From assembly GCF_013409575.1 (NCBI RefSeq), contig NZ_JACCCY010000003.1, positions 643,001 through 707,000 on the forward strand: 64,000 nt of DNA, in the 5' to 3' direction. Position 1 is the first letter of the stretch; the number at the start of each line of letters is the position of its first letter. The stretch comes from Macellibacteroides fermentans (GTDB lineage: Bacteria > Bacteroidota > Bacteroidia > Bacteroidales > Tannerellaceae). Under the pieces are notes generated by a model. It did not search any database. It had not been told where the DNA came from and saw only the letters and a list, made by a program, of their open reading frames with translations. The position numbers and the translations under genes are program-made. Positions 47,254-54,129 of this stretch are shown piece by piece.

Positions 47254-48009
47254 ATGGATAAAAATATTGATATCACACTGAAAGTTTGGCGTCAGAAAGG
47301 TCCGAAAGAAAAGGGCTTTTTCGAAACGTATCCGCTTAAAGGAATTTCCCAGGGAAGTTCTTTCCTTGAAATGCTGGATATCCTGAACGAGCAATTAATC
47401 AACGAGGGAAAAGATCCTGTAGTTTTTGACCACGACTGTCGCGAAGGTATTTGTGGTATGTGCTCTTTGTACATTAACGGACACCCTCACGGACCAGACA
47501 GTGCAGTTACTACTTGCCAGCTTCACATGCGTCGTTTCAATGACGGCGACACGATTACAATCGAGCCATGGCGTTCGGCCGGTTTCCCGGTTATCCGCGA
47601 CTTGATGGTGGATCGTACCGCATTCGATAAGATCATGCAGTCGGGTGGTTTCGTTTCTGTAAACACAGGTGGTATACCTGATGCTAATGCAATACCCATT
47701 CCTCAGTACAAGGCAGAAGAAGCTATGGATGCTGCTGCTTGTATCGGTTGTGGTGCTTGTGTTGCAGCCTGCAAAAACGGATCGGCTATGTTGTTTGTTT
47801 CAGCTAAGGTTAGTCAGCTTGCTCTGCTTCCTCAGGGACAGATTGAAGGTGCACGCCGTGCAAAAGCAATGGTTGCCAAAATGGACGAGCTGGGCTTTGG
47901 TAACTGTACAAACACCCGTGCCTGCGAAGTTGAATGTCCGAAGAGTATTTCGGTAAGCAACATTGCTCGCTTGAATCGTGAGTTCCTTGTAGCCAAGCTA
48001 AGAGACTAA
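47254..48009 (+). CDS. frdB: Fumarate reductase iron-sulfur subunit
   Basis: The 251-residue subunit relays electrons through three clusters. The [2Fe-2S] site is in [20 protein letters not shown], and the ferredoxin-like C-terminal part has [14 protein letters not shown] and [12 protein letters not shown] for the [4Fe-4S] and [3Fe-4S] centres. It is 39 bases after frdA and is followed by a strong terminator, which closes the operon. Confidence 0.95.
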
Positions 48010-48064: not shown

Positions 48065-48235
48065 GTTTTCTCTCTGAAAAGGCCTCTGCCTGTTCAGGCA
48101 GTTGCGAGAGGTTGTAATTTGAAAGCGATAGATCTTATAAATTATCAAATGTATGTTATTAGTTGATTTAATATTTCATATTGAAATATTAAATCTTTTT
48201 GTTATATACTTATGTAAATTAAAACTGCCAAAATG

Positions 48236-48266
48236 TTGACAATATGAAAAATGTTTGTTATGTTTG
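48236..48266 (+). promoter_or_regulatory. Promoter of small RNA unit 1
   Basis: TTG at 48236-48238 and TATGTTTG at 48259-48266 stand exactly 23 bases apart, as in the frd promoter. The conserved leader begins six bases after the -7 box. Confidence 0.7.
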
Positions 48267-48271
48267 CAATA

Positions 48272-48350
48272 GGTTTTTTCATAATAGTATTAAATTAAAG
48301 GTTAACAAAGATTGGTTAGGGGATGTCGGGATGACATCCCCTGATTTTTT
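48272..48350 (+). ncRNA. Small RNA unit, copy 1 (leader plus terminator hairpin)
   Basis: After its own promoter, a roughly 45-base leader (TTTTTTCATAATAGTATTA, then GGTTAACAAAG and TTGGTTAGG) runs into a 9-bp perfect hairpin GGGGATGTC/GACATCCCC with a GGGAT loop (48319-48341) and a T run at 48345-48350. No reading frame is present. Promoter, leader and terminator together predict an RNA of about 78 bases. The layout recalls the Bacteroidales-1 RNA motif described in this order, but identity is not established. A second copy follows 185 bases later. Confidence 0.65.
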
Positions 48351-48419
48351 ATACAAACTCCCCTTTACTCCTATGAAAGGTAATTATATGTTATTTAACA
48401 TGTTTTAGACAAAAAAGAC

Positions 48420-48450
48420 TTGACAAACCCGAATATAGCCCGTATCTTTG
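48420..48450 (+). promoter_or_regulatory. Promoter of small RNA unit 2
   Basis: TTG at 48420-48422 and TATCTTTG at 48443-48450 are again exactly 23 bases apart. The spacer sequence differs from that of copy 1, while the boxes and the spacing are kept. Confidence 0.7.
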
Positions 48451-48456
48451 TATCGT

Positions 48457-48530
48457 GGTTTTTTCATAATAGTATTAGATTTAAGGTTAACAAAGTTTGG
48501 TTAGGGGATGTCGGGAGACATCCTTTAATT
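48457..48530 (+). ncRNA. Small RNA unit, copy 2
   Basis: This copy repeats the copy 1 leader with only a few changes (TTTTTTCATAATAGTATTA is identical) and then GGATGTC/GACATCC with a GGGA loop (48506-48523). The hairpin is two pairs shorter and the T run after it is broken (TTTAATTG), so termination may be weaker. From 48531 to 48714 nothing further is recognised. Confidence 0.6.
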
Positions 48531-48714
48531 GTTTATAGATGTTTCTATCCCCAAAATCCCATTCTGCTAGTGAATGCATCCTTTCCACTCATATGATTTA
48601 TATTTCAGACAACCCCGCATACTATTGCCTTACAAGTAAATTTTCCCTATTCTCAGTCGGATATGTACCGAAAAGATATTAACTTGCGCGCAGATTAACA
48701 ATAAACAGTTTATT

Positions 48715-49527
48715 ATGAGATTCCTTAGAAGTGTTACATTATTTCTCTGCCTGCTTACAGCGCTTCAGGCCACGGCCGGCGACAAGCTGAGCTTCCTTAA
48801 AAAACAGTTTACCTCCCAAAACGGCTATAAGCTGAACTATCGGGTGCTGCTGCCCGCAGACTATTGTCCGGAGCAGAAATATCCCGTAATCCTGTTCCTG
48901 CACGGAGCGGGCGAGCGTGGCAACGACAACGAGAAACAGCTGGTACACGGATGGGACCTCTTTACCAATCTGCAGAACCGGGCAGACTATCCCGCCATTG
49001 TGCTGGCGCCACAATGCCCCGAACAGCCCGACGTACCTACCAAGAACTACTGGGTAGCCATTAAACGTCCGGTTACACCCCAGGAACGCATGTTCAGAAC
49101 CTTCCCGGCCAATGCCCCCATCACCGAACCCCTTGCGGCGGTAAAAGAACTGCTGGACAGTTACATTGCCAAAGGGGTGGTAGATACCAAGCGCATCTAT
49201 GTAACGGGACTCTCTATGGGAGGAATGGGAACCTTCGACCTCGTATGCCGTTACCCCAACCTCTTTGCGGCAGCTGTTCCTATCTGCGGAGCAGTCAATA
49301 CCGACCGTCTGGCCAGGTATAAAGGCAAAACCCCGTTCCGTCTTTTCCACGGAGCAGACGACGATGTAGTACTACCCAAGTTCTCGCAGGAAGCCTATAA
49401 AACCCTGAAGTCCATCGGAGCCGAAGTGCAATATACCGAATACCCCGGAGTAAACCACGGAAGCTGGGTACCCGCTTTTAAAGAACCCGACTTCCTGAGC
49501 TGGATGTTCAAACAGGTTAAAAAGTAG
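48715..49527 (+). CDS. Secreted esterase/peptidase-like alpha/beta hydrolase
   Basis: The 270-residue exported protein has a signal peptide (ends ALQATAG) and an alpha/beta-hydrolase fold of the PHB-depolymerase/esterase type. The oxyanion region ILFLHGAGERGND, nucleophile elbow VTGLSMGGMGTFDLVC, Asp in GADDDVV and His in PGVNHGSW give a complete triad. Likely substrates are acetylated or feruloylated glycans or other esters; none is proven. The gene is more GC-rich than the flanking DNA and has its own terminator. It lies between the small RNA units and IS66. Confidence 0.82.
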   Translation: MRFLRSVTLFLCLLTALQATAGDKLSFLKKQFTSQNGYKLNYRVLLPADYCPEQKYPVILFLHGAGERGNDNEKQLVHGWDLFTNLQNRADYPAIVLAPQCPEQPDVPTKNYWVAIKRPVTPQERMFRTFPANAPITEPLAAVKELLDSYIAKGVVDTKRIYVTGLSMGGMGTFDLVCRYPNLFAAAVPICGAVNTDRLARYKGKTPFRLFHGADDDVVLPKFSQEAYKTLKSIGAEVQYTEYPGVNHGSWVPAFKEPDFLSWMFKQVKK

Positions 49528-49693: not shown

Positions 49694-49724
49694 TTGTGAA
49701 CACATTTGATCCCCTTTACCTTTG
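49694..49724 (+). promoter_or_regulatory. IS66 promoter reaching into the left inverted repeat
   Basis: TTG at 49694-49696 lies inside the left inverted repeat and TACCTTTG at 49717-49724 follows at exactly 23 bases, a full Bacteroidota promoter for the transposition genes. Confidence 0.68.
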
Positions 49725-49742
49725 TTTTCAAAAAAGAAACAA

Positions 49743-50144
49743 ATGAAAGCATCCGAACTTTATGCATTGGCAATCGAAGAGTACAGGCAAATCTGTATTT
49801 TAAGTAGCATGACTTTACGGGACTATTGCAAAGAACGTCATGTCTGCTACGGAGGTATCCAGAATTGGATGAGCAGGCATTCGATCAAAGTAGCAGATCT
49901 CAAGCCTCGTCCCGTATTACCCGATACTTCTGCCTCCACTCCTGAGCAAGCCTCTTGTGAAGGACAACAACTCTATCCGCTCTCCTTTATAAAGGAAGCA
50001 TCAGAAAAACCGGTTTTCACAGGGAATGTTTTCCCTGTGCTTAAAGGCGTCAACATCACTTTTCCCGATGGCGTAATTATAACCATTAAAGAGATTAGCC
50101 AGGAAGATCTGAATAAATTTATACAAACCTATTTTAACCAATAA
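49743..50144 (+). CDS. IS66 TnpA-like accessory protein
   Basis: The 133-residue protein begins MKASELYALAIEEYRQ and contains an HTH-like region (MTLRDYCKERHVCYGGIQNW), as in the first gene of IS66 elements. It is needed for transposition and probably binds DNA. The open frame reaches a TTG at 49722, but this overlaps the -7 box; the ATG at 49743 is preferred. The next gene starts four bases after its stop. Confidence 0.85.
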   Translation: MKASELYALAIEEYRQICILSSMTLRDYCKERHVCYGGIQNWMSRHSIKVADLKPRPVLPDTSASTPEQASCEGQQLYPLSFIKEASEKPVFTGNVFPVLKGVNITFPDGVIITIKEISQEDLNKFIQTYFNQ

Positions 50145-50582: not shown

Positions 50583-52154
50583 ATGAATAGCAAACGGATT
50601 ATTGAACTACAGGAAGACCAGCTGAAACTTTCCGCTCAAAGGGAAAAGATGTATTTGGAACAACTCGTCCGGCAATCTGAACAAATAGAAAGACTCTCTG
50701 TCCAGGTTGGTAGTTTAACCGAAACAATCCGTTCGCTGGAAAAAAGCCTGCTTCAAAAGAACGGGGACATGCAGAAGGTTGAGGGGAAAAACCGGAGAAT
50801 GAGCAAGCTTCTCTCCAATAAATCGGAAAAGCTTGTGCCCGATACCGCAAAAGAAGAACCGACAGAAACCGCTCCCCCTGTTTTGCCCAAAGACCGCGGA
50901 AACAACAATGCCAAACGGAAAGAATACTTCTCTCTAGAAACCATTGTCGAGCATGTATATCCCGATGATCCTGCCTTTGACAAAGAAAAGGCCAGGGTGA
51001 TCGGATCTGTAGACTCCGTCATGTATACCTACAGCAAGGCTACTTTTAAGAAAATCATATACAGACAATATAATTGCGTACAGCAGGAAAAGGTTTACTC
51101 GGGTAAAGCCCCCAGATCTCCCCTGCAGAACTCAAACTATGATGCCTCCTTTATCGCCGGCATGCTTCAACTGCGGTATGTTTACTCCATGCCTGTGGAG
51201 CGGATTGTCAAGTATTTTACAGAAAATGGCTTTGAATTAAACAAAGCTACCGCCCACGGACTGATTAAGAAGTCTGCCGGATTAATGGACCGCCTGGATG
51301 ATGTTCTTCATACAGCGATCCTTGAAGATGACTATCTTTGTATGGATGAAAGTTACCATACCATCCTTACCAAAGAGAAAAACAAGGATGGTAAGGGCGT
51401 ACGCAAAGGGTATATCTGGGCTGCGCTGGCCAATACAAAGAAATTGGTCCAGTACTTTTATGAAAACGGGTCTCGATCCCGGGAGGTTCTGACCAACTAT
51501 ATCGGCAATCATTACAAAGGAGCCATCCAGAGTGACGGGCTGATCAACTATAAAATACTTGAGACCGATACCTATCCTGATGTAATCCGGCTGGCATGCT
51601 TCCAGCACTGCAAGCGTCAGTTCCTGGATCTCGCAAACGATAAAGAAGCCATCGGAATTGTCAACATAATCAACCGGCTTTATCAGGCGGAGCATAAGAT
51701 TGACCCGAAATGGAAGCCCGACAAAATCCTTGAACATAGACAAGAGTACGCCCCACCCATACTGGCTGAACTAAAAAGCAAACTGTTGGAAATACAATCC
51801 AATCCATCCACCCTTCCCAAGAGTCCCCTCTCGAAGGCCGTGAATTATACTCTCAACGAGTACGATGCACTGTGTAATTACATTGTACGTCCGGACTATG
51901 CGTTGGATAACAATGCCGTGGAAAGATGTATGCGAAGCATATCTTTAAGCAGAAAAAACTCTCTTTTTTGTGGCAGTCATGCCGGAGCTAAAAGAACGGC
52001 ATTGCTCTACTCGCTATCCATCTCCTGCAAACTTCATAATATAAACTCCTTCGAATACTTTACGGACATACTAAACCGACTGGCATACATAAGTCCAACC
52101 GCTCCCGATCAAATATATCGCGATTTACTTCCAGACAAGTGGACTAAACTCTAA
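50583..52154 (+). CDS. tnpC: IS66 transposase (TnpC)
   Basis: The 523-residue transposase has an N-terminal coiled coil (EQIERLSVQVGSLTETIRSL), a zinc-finger-poor linker, and the DDE domain of IS66 (LCMDESYHTIL, IQSDGLINYK, CFQHCKRQFLDL, and the Glu in DNNAVERCMRSISLSRKN). Frame and ends are intact, so the element could be active. It is preceded by a 92-bp gap after tnpB. Confidence 0.95.
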   Translation: MNSKRIIELQEDQLKLSAQREKMYLEQLVRQSEQIERLSVQVGSLTETIRSLEKSLLQKNGDMQKVEGKNRRMSKLLSNKSEKLVPDTAKEEPTETAPPVLPKDRGNNNAKRKEYFSLETIVEHVYPDDPAFDKEKARVIGSVDSVMYTYSKATFKKIIYRQYNCVQQEKVYSGKAPRSPLQNSNYDASFIAGMLQLRYVYSMPVERIVKYFTENGFELNKATAHGLIKKSAGLMDRLDDVLHTAILEDDYLCMDESYHTILTKEKNKDGKGVRKGYIWAALANTKKLVQYFYENGSRSREVLTNYIGNHYKGAIQSDGLINYKILETDTYPDVIRLACFQHCKRQFLDLANDKEAIGIVNIINRLYQAEHKIDPKWKPDKILEHRQEYAPPILAELKSKLLEIQSNPSTLPKSPLSKAVNYTLNEYDALCNYIVRPDYALDNNAVERCMRSISLSRKNSLFCGSHAGAKRTALLYSLSISCKLHNINSFEYFTDILNRLAYISPTAPDQIYRDLLPDKWTKL

Positions 52155-52498: not shown

Positions 52499-54129
52499 AC
52501 AGGGCAGACGCATATTATTTTAGAGCTAAAAGAGTAAGGATTATTACTTAATGTGTATATATATAATGCAGATATTCAATATATTAAACATAGCATATCT
52601 GACGTTCATAATTTATTGTATCAAAACATCGTCAATTTAAAATAAGATTAAAATAGCCATATTTAATATTAATCGTACATATTGTATGTGATAAAATTTG
52701 CTTTAAAAATAATAACCGTCTCTAAAAATTGGATGTATCTTTTTGCTACGACAACTTTGTTAAGTTAAAACTTTAATCAGAATATTTAAGTTCAGTTTGA
52801 AGTCATATTGACATTACTAAAAAGAGCCCAAAAACGGTAATTACAACTACGAAAAGAAAGATAATAAATCTTCAAAATAATCACTTAAACTCATTGATAT
52901 CTCAGTAAAAAATCGTATATTTACCTTATTATCAATAGTTTAAATACATAAAATATGACATTGCTTGCTTTTGCTTCAAGTATCGAAGATTATCGTTTTG
53001 ACAGAAATAAGGTTCACTCTGCAGAAACTATTATTTATATTACGTTAGCTGCCGTTATTTGCGGGGCCGAGACATGGAATGAAATAGAAGACTTTGGTCA
53101 TTGTAAAATTGATTTCTTCTCTCGTACGATCCCTTCTTTTAATGGAATACCCTCACATGATACATTTAACCGATTTTTCACAGTCTTGGATACCTCATAT
53201 TTTGAAAATCAATTCAGAGAATGGGTTAAATCCATATGTGGCAAGTATAAAGGCGTGGTTGCTATCGACGGCAAAACAATATGCGGAGCATATGAGTCTG
53301 AAGAGGCTAAATTATTCAGAGGTACCTACTTAAAACCATCGAGTCCCAAATATAAACTTCACATGGTAAGTGCCTGGGCCGCAGACAATGGAATAAGCCT
53401 TGGACAAATCAAGACAGAAGAAAAATCCAATGAAATTACCGCTATCCCCGAACTATTGGAAGCATTAGATATTAAAGAGTGTATAATCACTATTGATGCT
53501 ATGGGATGTCAAAAGACAATAGCATCTAAAATAATAGACAAAGAAGCTGATTACGTTTTGGCTGTGAAAAACAACCATATGCATTTATACAAAGAAATAG
53601 AACATTTTTTCACCATTTGGAGTGCTGAGAAGCCCAACCGGGTAAGCGTTTACGAGAAGAGCGAGACTGGACATGGTCGTTTGGAAAAAAGAACTTGCAT
53701 AGCCTGTGACAACCTATACTGGTTAAATACTAAAGACTTCACTCAATGGGCTGGTTTGAAAACATTTGCCTGTGTCATTACAGAGCGTACCGTTCCAGGC
53801 GAAAAAGGCCCTCGTAAACAAAAAGAAACCAGATACTATATTTCTTCATTAGCTTTAGATGCTGAATTAATCGCTAGTTCTGTCAGAAAACACTGGTCTG
53901 TGGAAAATAATTTACACTGGCAATTGGATGTCTCGTTTAATGAAGATTACGGAAGAAAGAAGAACAATGCTGCCGTCAACTTTTCGCTTGTCTCTAAAAC
54001 AGCTTTATCTATGTTAAAGCACTATGAAAGTAAAAGTAGCATTGCTCGCAAAAGAAAATCAGCAGGATGGTCTGACGACGTTCTCCAAAGCATACTTTCT
54101 GTGGAGAAATTTTAATGCGTCTGCCCTGT
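52499..54129 (+). mobile_element. ISAs1-family insertion sequence
   Basis: A 15-base perfect inverted repeat ACAGGGCAGACGCAT lies at 52499-52513 and, inverted, at 54115-54129, the right copy touching the transposase stop codon. The element is about 1.63 kb, with one intact transposase gene and an unusually long 440-bp AT-rich stretch before it that holds no gene. No target duplication is seen in the flanking bases. Confidence 0.85.
52955..54115 (+). CDS. ISAs1-family transposase
   Basis: The 386-residue DDE transposase (H-repeat-associated type) has the expected motifs: NGIPSHDTFNRFF, GVVAIDGKTICGAY (first Asp), ITIDAMGCQKTIASKII (second Asp), and KHWSVENNLHWQLDVSFNED (Glu). The length is normal and the frame intact. 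It probably mobilises the element bounded by the ACAGGGCAGACGCAT ends. No partner gene is needed. Confidence 0.95.
   Translation: MTLLAFASSIEDYRFDRNKVHSAETIIYITLAAVICGAETWNEIEDFGHCKIDFFSRTIPSFNGIPSHDTFNRFFTVLDTSYFENQFREWVKSICGKYKGVVAIDGKTICGAYESEEAKLFRGTYLKPSSPKYKLHMVSAWAADNGISLGQIKTEEKSNEITAIPELLEALDIKECIITIDAMGCQKTIASKIIDKEADYVLAVKNNHMHLYKEIEHFFTIWSAEKPNRVSVYEKSETGHGRLEKRTCIACDNLYWLNTKDFTQWAGLKTFACVITERTVPGEKGPRKQKETRYYISSLALDAELIASSVRKHWSVENNLHWQLDVSFNEDYGRKKNNAAVNFSLVSKTALSMLKHYESKSSIARKRKSAGWSDDVLQSILSVEKF

Follow-up and report, generated by a model that had tools for sequence, protein, structure and literature searches.

The window, that is the whole stretch of 64,000 nucleotides of Macellibacteroides fermentans that was analysed, contains two small RNA units in direct repeat between an iron-sulfur subunit gene (47254-48009; Pfam Fer2_3/Fer4), which we take to be sdhB, and an esterase gene (48715-49527). 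The repeat comprises 60 nt with 57 of 60 positions identical (95%), occupies 48272-48331 and 48457-48516 with starts 185 bp apart, and is the sole direct-repeat family of at least 20 nt within 48100-48720. A first-pass annotation had described two copies with a shared leader about 185 bp apart, each with its own promoter and 23 bases from TTG to TA, and both coordinates and spacing were right, as were the promoters (TTG at 48236 and 48420). Its view of a promoter-leader-hairpin small RNA, in which the RNA itself is conserved and the unit is doubled, is upheld in all three parts. The absence of a reading frame, claimed as well, is true in practice but not to the letter, as two ORFs (54 and 58 amino acids) traverse the copies; they were discounted because both begin upstream of the expected transcription starts. 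Further 3' of the pair and the esterase gene there are an ORF with no Pfam match (49722-50144), an IS66-type transposase gene (50583-52154) and a DDE_Tnp_1 transposase gene (52955-54115). The features of the two units are as follows.

48236-48266, forward strand: promoter of copy 1, TTGACAAT at -33 and TATGTTTG at -7 (from the sequence; TTG to TA 23 bases)
48273-48354, forward strand: small RNA of copy 1, FopS-like, under the Rfam cut-off, ends predicted (RF04319, 53.0 bits, E 6.4e-07; genome-level E 9.4e-07)
48287-48306, forward strand: seed region of copy 1 with two substitutions, ATTAAATTAAAGG against ATTAGATTTAAGG of the family (variant unique to this record in a set of 146 distinct ones)
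48314-48346, forward strand: terminator-like hairpin of copy 1, 14-bp stem followed by TTTTATA (whole-RNA fold z -3.36; covarying stem)
48388-48401, forward strand: candidate regulator site, dyad ATGTT-ATTT-AACAT with its centre near -60.5 relative to copy 2 (weight matrix; fixed-position enrichment)
48420-48450, forward strand: promoter of copy 2, TTGACAAA at -33 and TATCTTTG at -7 (from the sequence; TTG to TA 23 bases)
48455-48540, forward strand: small RNA of copy 2, FopS, ends predicted (RF04319, 58.6 bits, gathering score 56)
48472-48491, forward strand: seed region of copy 2 (R1/R1'), family consensus (ATTAGATTTAAGGTTAAC, unchanged in 123 of 146 records)
48499-48530, forward strand: terminator-like hairpin of copy 2, 14-bp stem with G-U pairs and the tail GTTTATA (fold; covariation)

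Both copies are preceded by TTG-N20-TAnnTTTG, and we take this TTG/TA layout to be that of the canonical sigmaABfr promoter named for FopS. The RNAs themselves belong to a known family. In a scan of the whole window RF04319 (BTncRNA_FopS) matched copy 2 at 48455-48538; the 58.6 bits reached there exceed the gathering score of 56. In a permissive scan of 48100-48720 copy 1 matched the same model at 48273-48353 with 53.0 bits, under this cut-off. Copy 1 is a FopS-like paralogue and not a formal member. Within this 621-base stretch the E-values are 5.2e-08 for copy 2 and 6.4e-07 for copy 1, and since both copies match one covariance model the repeat is not due to chance. The likeness to the Bacteroidales-1 RNA motif that had been suggested before pointed to the wrong family: comparison with the Rfam covariance models did reveal a known one, but it was FopS, and the Bacteroidales-1 model was dropped as it gave no match at the gathering threshold in the whole window or at E<=1 in 48100-48720. 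GibS (RF04182) was rejected too: its gathering score is 115, and the copies reach 24.9 and 23.4 bits. The genome of the window has 23 matches to RF04319 at E<=10, including 13 at E<=0.01 and nine over the cut-off, as befits a multicopy family. We are highly confident that both units are FopS paralogues arranged in tandem, with an upstream dyad before copy 2 and presumably FopS-type regulation. As a locus of an sRNA family already described, the pair is real and ordinary; its tandem arrangement is conserved in the genus. Two weak FopS matches elsewhere (L014 and L015; 29.4 and 26.0 bits) have leaders of similar type, TTTTTTCATAGTTAAGG and TTTTTCATTGGTTAAAG, and possibly represent a separate sRNA family.

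Minimum free energy folding predicts for either copy a stem of 14 bp (-22.3 kcal/mol and z -3.36 for copy 1; -18.3 kcal/mol and z -2.81 for copy 2, where the lower half of the stem has G-U pairs), and for each copy two of 200 shuffles were as stable. Hairpins of 9 bp in copy 1 and 7 bp in copy 2 had been reported earlier; the figure for copy 2 was wrong because its G-U pairs were missed, and both copies have 14-bp stems with covariation. Over 55 distinct RNAs of this subtype, in which seed and leader are nearly invariant, standard pairs fill 97.9% of the 770 cells of the stem, a figure that is favoured by copy 2 having supplied the structure. Two-sided changes occur at six of the 14 stem pairs, and the covariation score of 0.256 exceeds those of all 500 shuffles and all slid versions, the shuffles keeping no relatedness. 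As the stem of the Rfam model has only 7 bp, the lower half of the stem is a feature of this subtype that is absent from the model. The tail following the stem of copy 2, AATTGTTT, recurs in 25 of the 55 RNAs and AATTTTTT in another 22. Fold and covariation together predict a 3' intrinsic-terminator hairpin of the kind known from FopS.

FopS RNAs serve gut Bacteroidales to lower the expression of genes for sugar uptake. In Bacteroides thetaiotaomicron the R1' sequence of FopS pairs with the start regions of SusC mRNAs and thereby blocks translation, the RNAs bind the protein RbpB, which counters SusC repression, their levels rise under bile salts, and four of the members in that species have a few SNPs in the seed (PMC11697453). 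The possible partners are encoded in the genome of the window as well, with 41 SusC matches (40 over the cut-off) and three RRM_1 matches. The seed of copy 2 is the consensus R1/R1' seed and lies unpaired in the single-stranded 5' leader of the predicted fold; that of copy 1 is also unpaired and differs from the consensus by two substitutions. Pairing was calculated for 30 of the 41 SusC loci, with the most upstream in-frame ATG assumed as start, a region from -45 to +15 and 300 shuffled seeds. In silico, the consensus seed reached a mean of -9.56 kcal/mol against the start regions versus -6.84 for shuffled seeds, with p<=0.05 in nine of 30 start regions versus one of 30 regions inside genes and three of 30 further upstream (10, 1 and 3 in a repeat run). 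The copy 1 seed gave a mean of -7.08 kcal/mol versus -6.01 for its own shuffles, and six of 30 start regions versus one and none of 30 in the two controls. The copy 1 seed is thus weaker, yet still enriched over its own shuffles, and may not be dead. A search for near-complementary targets (20 nt, at most three mismatches) returned matches only in the FopS genes themselves, so that pairing with targets would be short or imperfect.

Upstream of the core promoter the two copies differ. We collected 146 distinct FopS records by leader patterns, with the named-locus set and records with fewer than 85 upstream bases left aside, and distinguished by labels of our own a long type (L, leader TCATAATAGTATTAG) and a short type (S, leader TCATGGTATTAG). 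After removal of upstream regions 80% alike 122 records were retained, namely 78 L, 35 S, eight Bacteroides-like (TCATAGTATTAG) and a doubtful one (L017, 21.6 bits) that was excluded from dyad counts and weight matrix. The core of the shared upstream element is the dyad ATGYT-N4-AACAT. With at least eight of ten positions matching, L promoters have it in 37 of 78 cases, where shuffling gives an expectation of 4.8, or in 27 of 65 (3.7 expected) when the genus of the window is removed, and S promoters in 26 of 35 (1.6 expected). Its place is fixed: it starts at -75 or -76 before the TCAT of the leader in 33 of the 37 L cases and at -41 or -42 in 21 of the 26 S cases. Among the 12 distinct Bacteroides-like records, which come from clustered loci, ten have the dyad, all starting at -74 (1.2 expected; six of eight after thinning); six of the ten belong to B. 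luti, three to B. salyersiae and one to a record titled Phocaeicola faecalis. The data in which the dyad was first spotted also served for the counts, of which those from other genera and from the Bacteroides-like records are the more independent part.

A weight matrix was built from the 65 L promoters of other genera, covering -74 to -47 before TCAT, and applied to the genus of the window. Copy 2 scores 10.8 in the window, 8.7 in G002 and 10.5 in G001, the two other species of the genus examined, and these values were matched by 1, 0 and 0 of 500 shuffles. For copy 1 the scores in the same order are -3.4, -3.9 and -5.5, values that 62%, 86% and 87% of shuffles attain. This means that copy 2 has the element in three of three species and copy 1 in none. 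Two further copies in the genus score weakly (L006 5.6, reached by 7% of shuffles; L145 4.4, by 6%). Only six of 93 L records score below 0, and three of these six are the copy 1 promoters of the genus. In the window the dyad of copy 2 (48388-48401) is centred 60.5 bp before 48455, the transcription start predicted from the Rfam match. Allowing up to three mismatches, the sequence ATGTTRTTTAACATGTTTTA has 14 matches in the whole genome versus two for its reversed control; all six matches with 0-2 mismatches and one with three lie upstream of FopS genes, and the other seven have three mismatches. A genome-wide regulon of the short-type dyad was not apparent (57 sites versus 51 for the reversed control at up to three mismatches), and the flanks of 30 loci with the short-type dyad showed no clear common gene. 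At one locus (L190, G000:C1:445165) a perfect TATGTTGTACAACATA dyad is flanked by a -7-like box and a reading frame of 25 codons, and this or a similar regulator perhaps binds there too.

The topology of the dyad appears to resemble that of FNR/CRP-type sites, and a centre at -60.5 would suit a class I activator. We consider the dyad a candidate site, proposed from sequence comparison, for the "unknown transcriptional regulator" postulated in the FopS paper (PMC11697453). More specifically, ATGYT-N4-AACAT would be an operator common to many FopS genes of Bacteroides and of the family of the window, placed near -60 or near -28, i.e. about three helical turns apart, for a regulator that co-activates or derepresses the set; in the genus of the window the pair would then split this programme, with copy 2 under the regulator and copy 1 released. 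In our judgement the chances of this proposal are evenly balanced. What is new here is the fixed-position upstream dyad, the FopS family itself being already described. No earlier report of the dyad was found in the main texts of open-licence papers, nor was a report of tandem paralogous sRNAs in Bacteroides found in that literature, and the words "tandem" and "palindrom" are absent from the main text of PMC11697453.

A tentative alternative with an appreciable chance of being correct is that the dyad is no site of a dedicated regulator but an UP-element-like contact of RNA polymerase or a part of the known promoter class PM2. It is A+T-rich and in the long type lies directly upstream of -33, where its right half is much better kept than its left (at least four of five positions in 67 versus 36 of 78 promoters, both halves in 32), and such incompleteness in many promoters speaks against a clean operator. 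PM2, compared here by description, is near-palindromic with boxes at -10 and -30 (PMC7366714), and near -28 lies the centre of the short-type dyad. However, the long-type dyad is too far upstream for a -30 box, and the enrichment of the dyad (at least eight of ten positions) at fixed places in all three groups (37 of 78, 26 of 35 and 10 of 12) is at variance with this alternative.

The distribution of the family was surveyed in 40 genomes, that of the window included. At E<=0.01 RF04319 matched in 30 of them (in 26 over the cut-off), comprising all 24 genomes of the window's family, its own among them, and six of 16 others of the order. This family, which we take to be the Tannerellaceae, includes Parabacteroides and Massilibacteroides (G018 is a Massilibacteroides, G022 Parabacteroides chinchillae and G020 Parabacteroides sp. 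PH5-46). All 18 genomes reached via named iron-sulfur subunit loci have a match over the cut-off, with Parabacteroides, Porphyromonas gulae, Dysgonomonas, Coprobacter, Bacteroides luti and B. salyersiae among them. The range of FopS as published is the Bacteroidaceae (PMC11697453). The short-type leader was found exactly in eight IMG/VR contigs (L279-L286), which may be phage or host DNA and agree with the remark on a phage copy of FopS in PMC11697453; the 27-base leader of the long subtype had no exact match in the same viral contigs.

Comparison of related genomes for one or two copies, as the first-pass annotation had proposed, showed that both copies are kept 185 bp apart in all three species of the genus examined, and in each the pair lies 3' of the iron-sulfur subunit gene, which in G001 and G002 is 86% identical to that of the window. 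Close same-strand pairs (<400 bp) occur in at least five further genomes (G016, G048, G050, G055, G056), and G005, G015, G017, G022 and G023 are among those with looser clusters, so doubling of FopS recurs in the order and is not unique to this locus. Four FopS genes lie within about 3.4 kb at L167 (G005:C5:815500-822000) and four within about 12 kb at L168 (G015:C112:15500-31000), each preceded by promoter-like sequence. It is rather unlikely, although such a reading carries some weight, that the pair is an accident of duplication and its arrangement has no role. The two transposase genes 2.0-5.6 kb downstream of the pair, the close pairs in the further genomes and the changed seed of copy 1 would fit such an origin. 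Against it stands the persistence of pair and spacing over three species despite the divergence of the neighbouring presumed sdhB genes; moreover, the promoter and hairpin of copy 1 are retained in all three, which argues against a dead copy.

The consensus seed 13-mer is found in 135 of 146 records, the copy 1 variant in the species of the window alone, and copy 1 of G001 and G002 has ATTAGATTTAAGG. We regard it as very improbable that this seed was selected to hit a new SusC mRNA at locus L292 (G000:C3:633972-633992). A 12-nt exact match lies there next to the start codon, with a predicted duplex of -12.5 kcal/mol versus -8.7 for the consensus seed, and neither relative has this site together with its start codon, even with two mismatches allowed; an equal gain against some SusC start region, however, was obtained in 37% of random double seed mutants (35% with A/U-only changes). 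Selected retargeting did not beat this null and was rejected, so that drift is the simpler reading of the copy 1 seed.

That copy 2 would act as leader or attenuator of the same-strand esterase gene downstream, with read-through past a weak hairpin as suggested earlier, is scarcely credible and was rejected, since in spite of a poor U tract (GTTTATA) its stem has 14 bp and not 7, its tail is of a kind common in the subtype, the pair in G001 is followed by a different gene (translated by eye; G001 alone has sequence past the pair, the G002 contig stopping there) and blastn with the esterase at E<=1e-10 matched only the window's own loci among 150 loci; the gene starts 184 bp past the stem.

From what was observed, namely the family match, the build of promoters and hairpins, the conserved pair and the presence or absence of the element, we infer the following course of transcription, target repression and regulator binding. 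Each unit would give rise to an RNA of about 80 nt from its own sigmaABfr-type promoter, in which a 5' leader free of structure bears the R1/R1' seed and is followed by the 14-bp terminator-like hairpin. To judge from the homologous RNAs of B. thetaiotaomicron, the leader would pair with the start-codon region of mRNAs for SusC-type transporters and block their translation, and an RbpB-like RRM protein may antagonise this repression. Copy 2 can be considered as the standard member, and the shared dyad at about -60 may bind a common regulator. Copy 1 would be an older duplicate that has no dyad and whose seed, in this species, has also changed at two bases. The dyad before copy 2 but not copy 1, together with the altered seed, points to a probable split of the copies in control and pairing: copy 2 is probably under the shared FopS programme, copy 1 would rely on its core promoter and pair more weakly with SusC mRNAs.

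Of these results, the one to pursue is the upstream dyad, which many FopS genes share and which distinguishes copy 2 from copy 1. At a fixed position in FopS promoters of several genera, it provides a defined target for mutation and a bait with which to look for the regulator, and the tandem pair offers a natural comparison with and without the dyad inside one locus.

Among known systems, the likeness to the Bacteroidales-1 RNA motif is an analogy of the first-pass annotation alone, and its model has no match here. Some multicopy sRNA sets of the Qrr, LhrC or OmrA/B kind sit in tandem. These sets, named in PMC11697453 and likened here by description, share with the pair paralogous copies and overlapping targets but are other RNAs in other hosts with other targets. 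GibS (RF04182; PMC7366714) has a related 5' leader with an R1 seed (PMC11697453), but the copies of the window fall far below its cut-off, and its 3' part and promoter differ. The closest system is FopS (RF04319; PMC11697453; also named in PMC12119571), with which the window shares the leader with R1' seed, the single hairpin, an own promoter, many copies per genome, and a genome that also encodes RRM proteins and SusC. Unlike FopS as published, the window has a tandem pair at 185 bp, and its 85-nt subtype has a 14-bp stem versus 7 bp in the Rfam model. The host family also differs, being Bacteroidaceae in the published case and presumably Tannerellaceae here, and copy 1 departs from FopS furthest, with its score below the cut-off, its altered seed and a promoter that lacks the upstream dyad.
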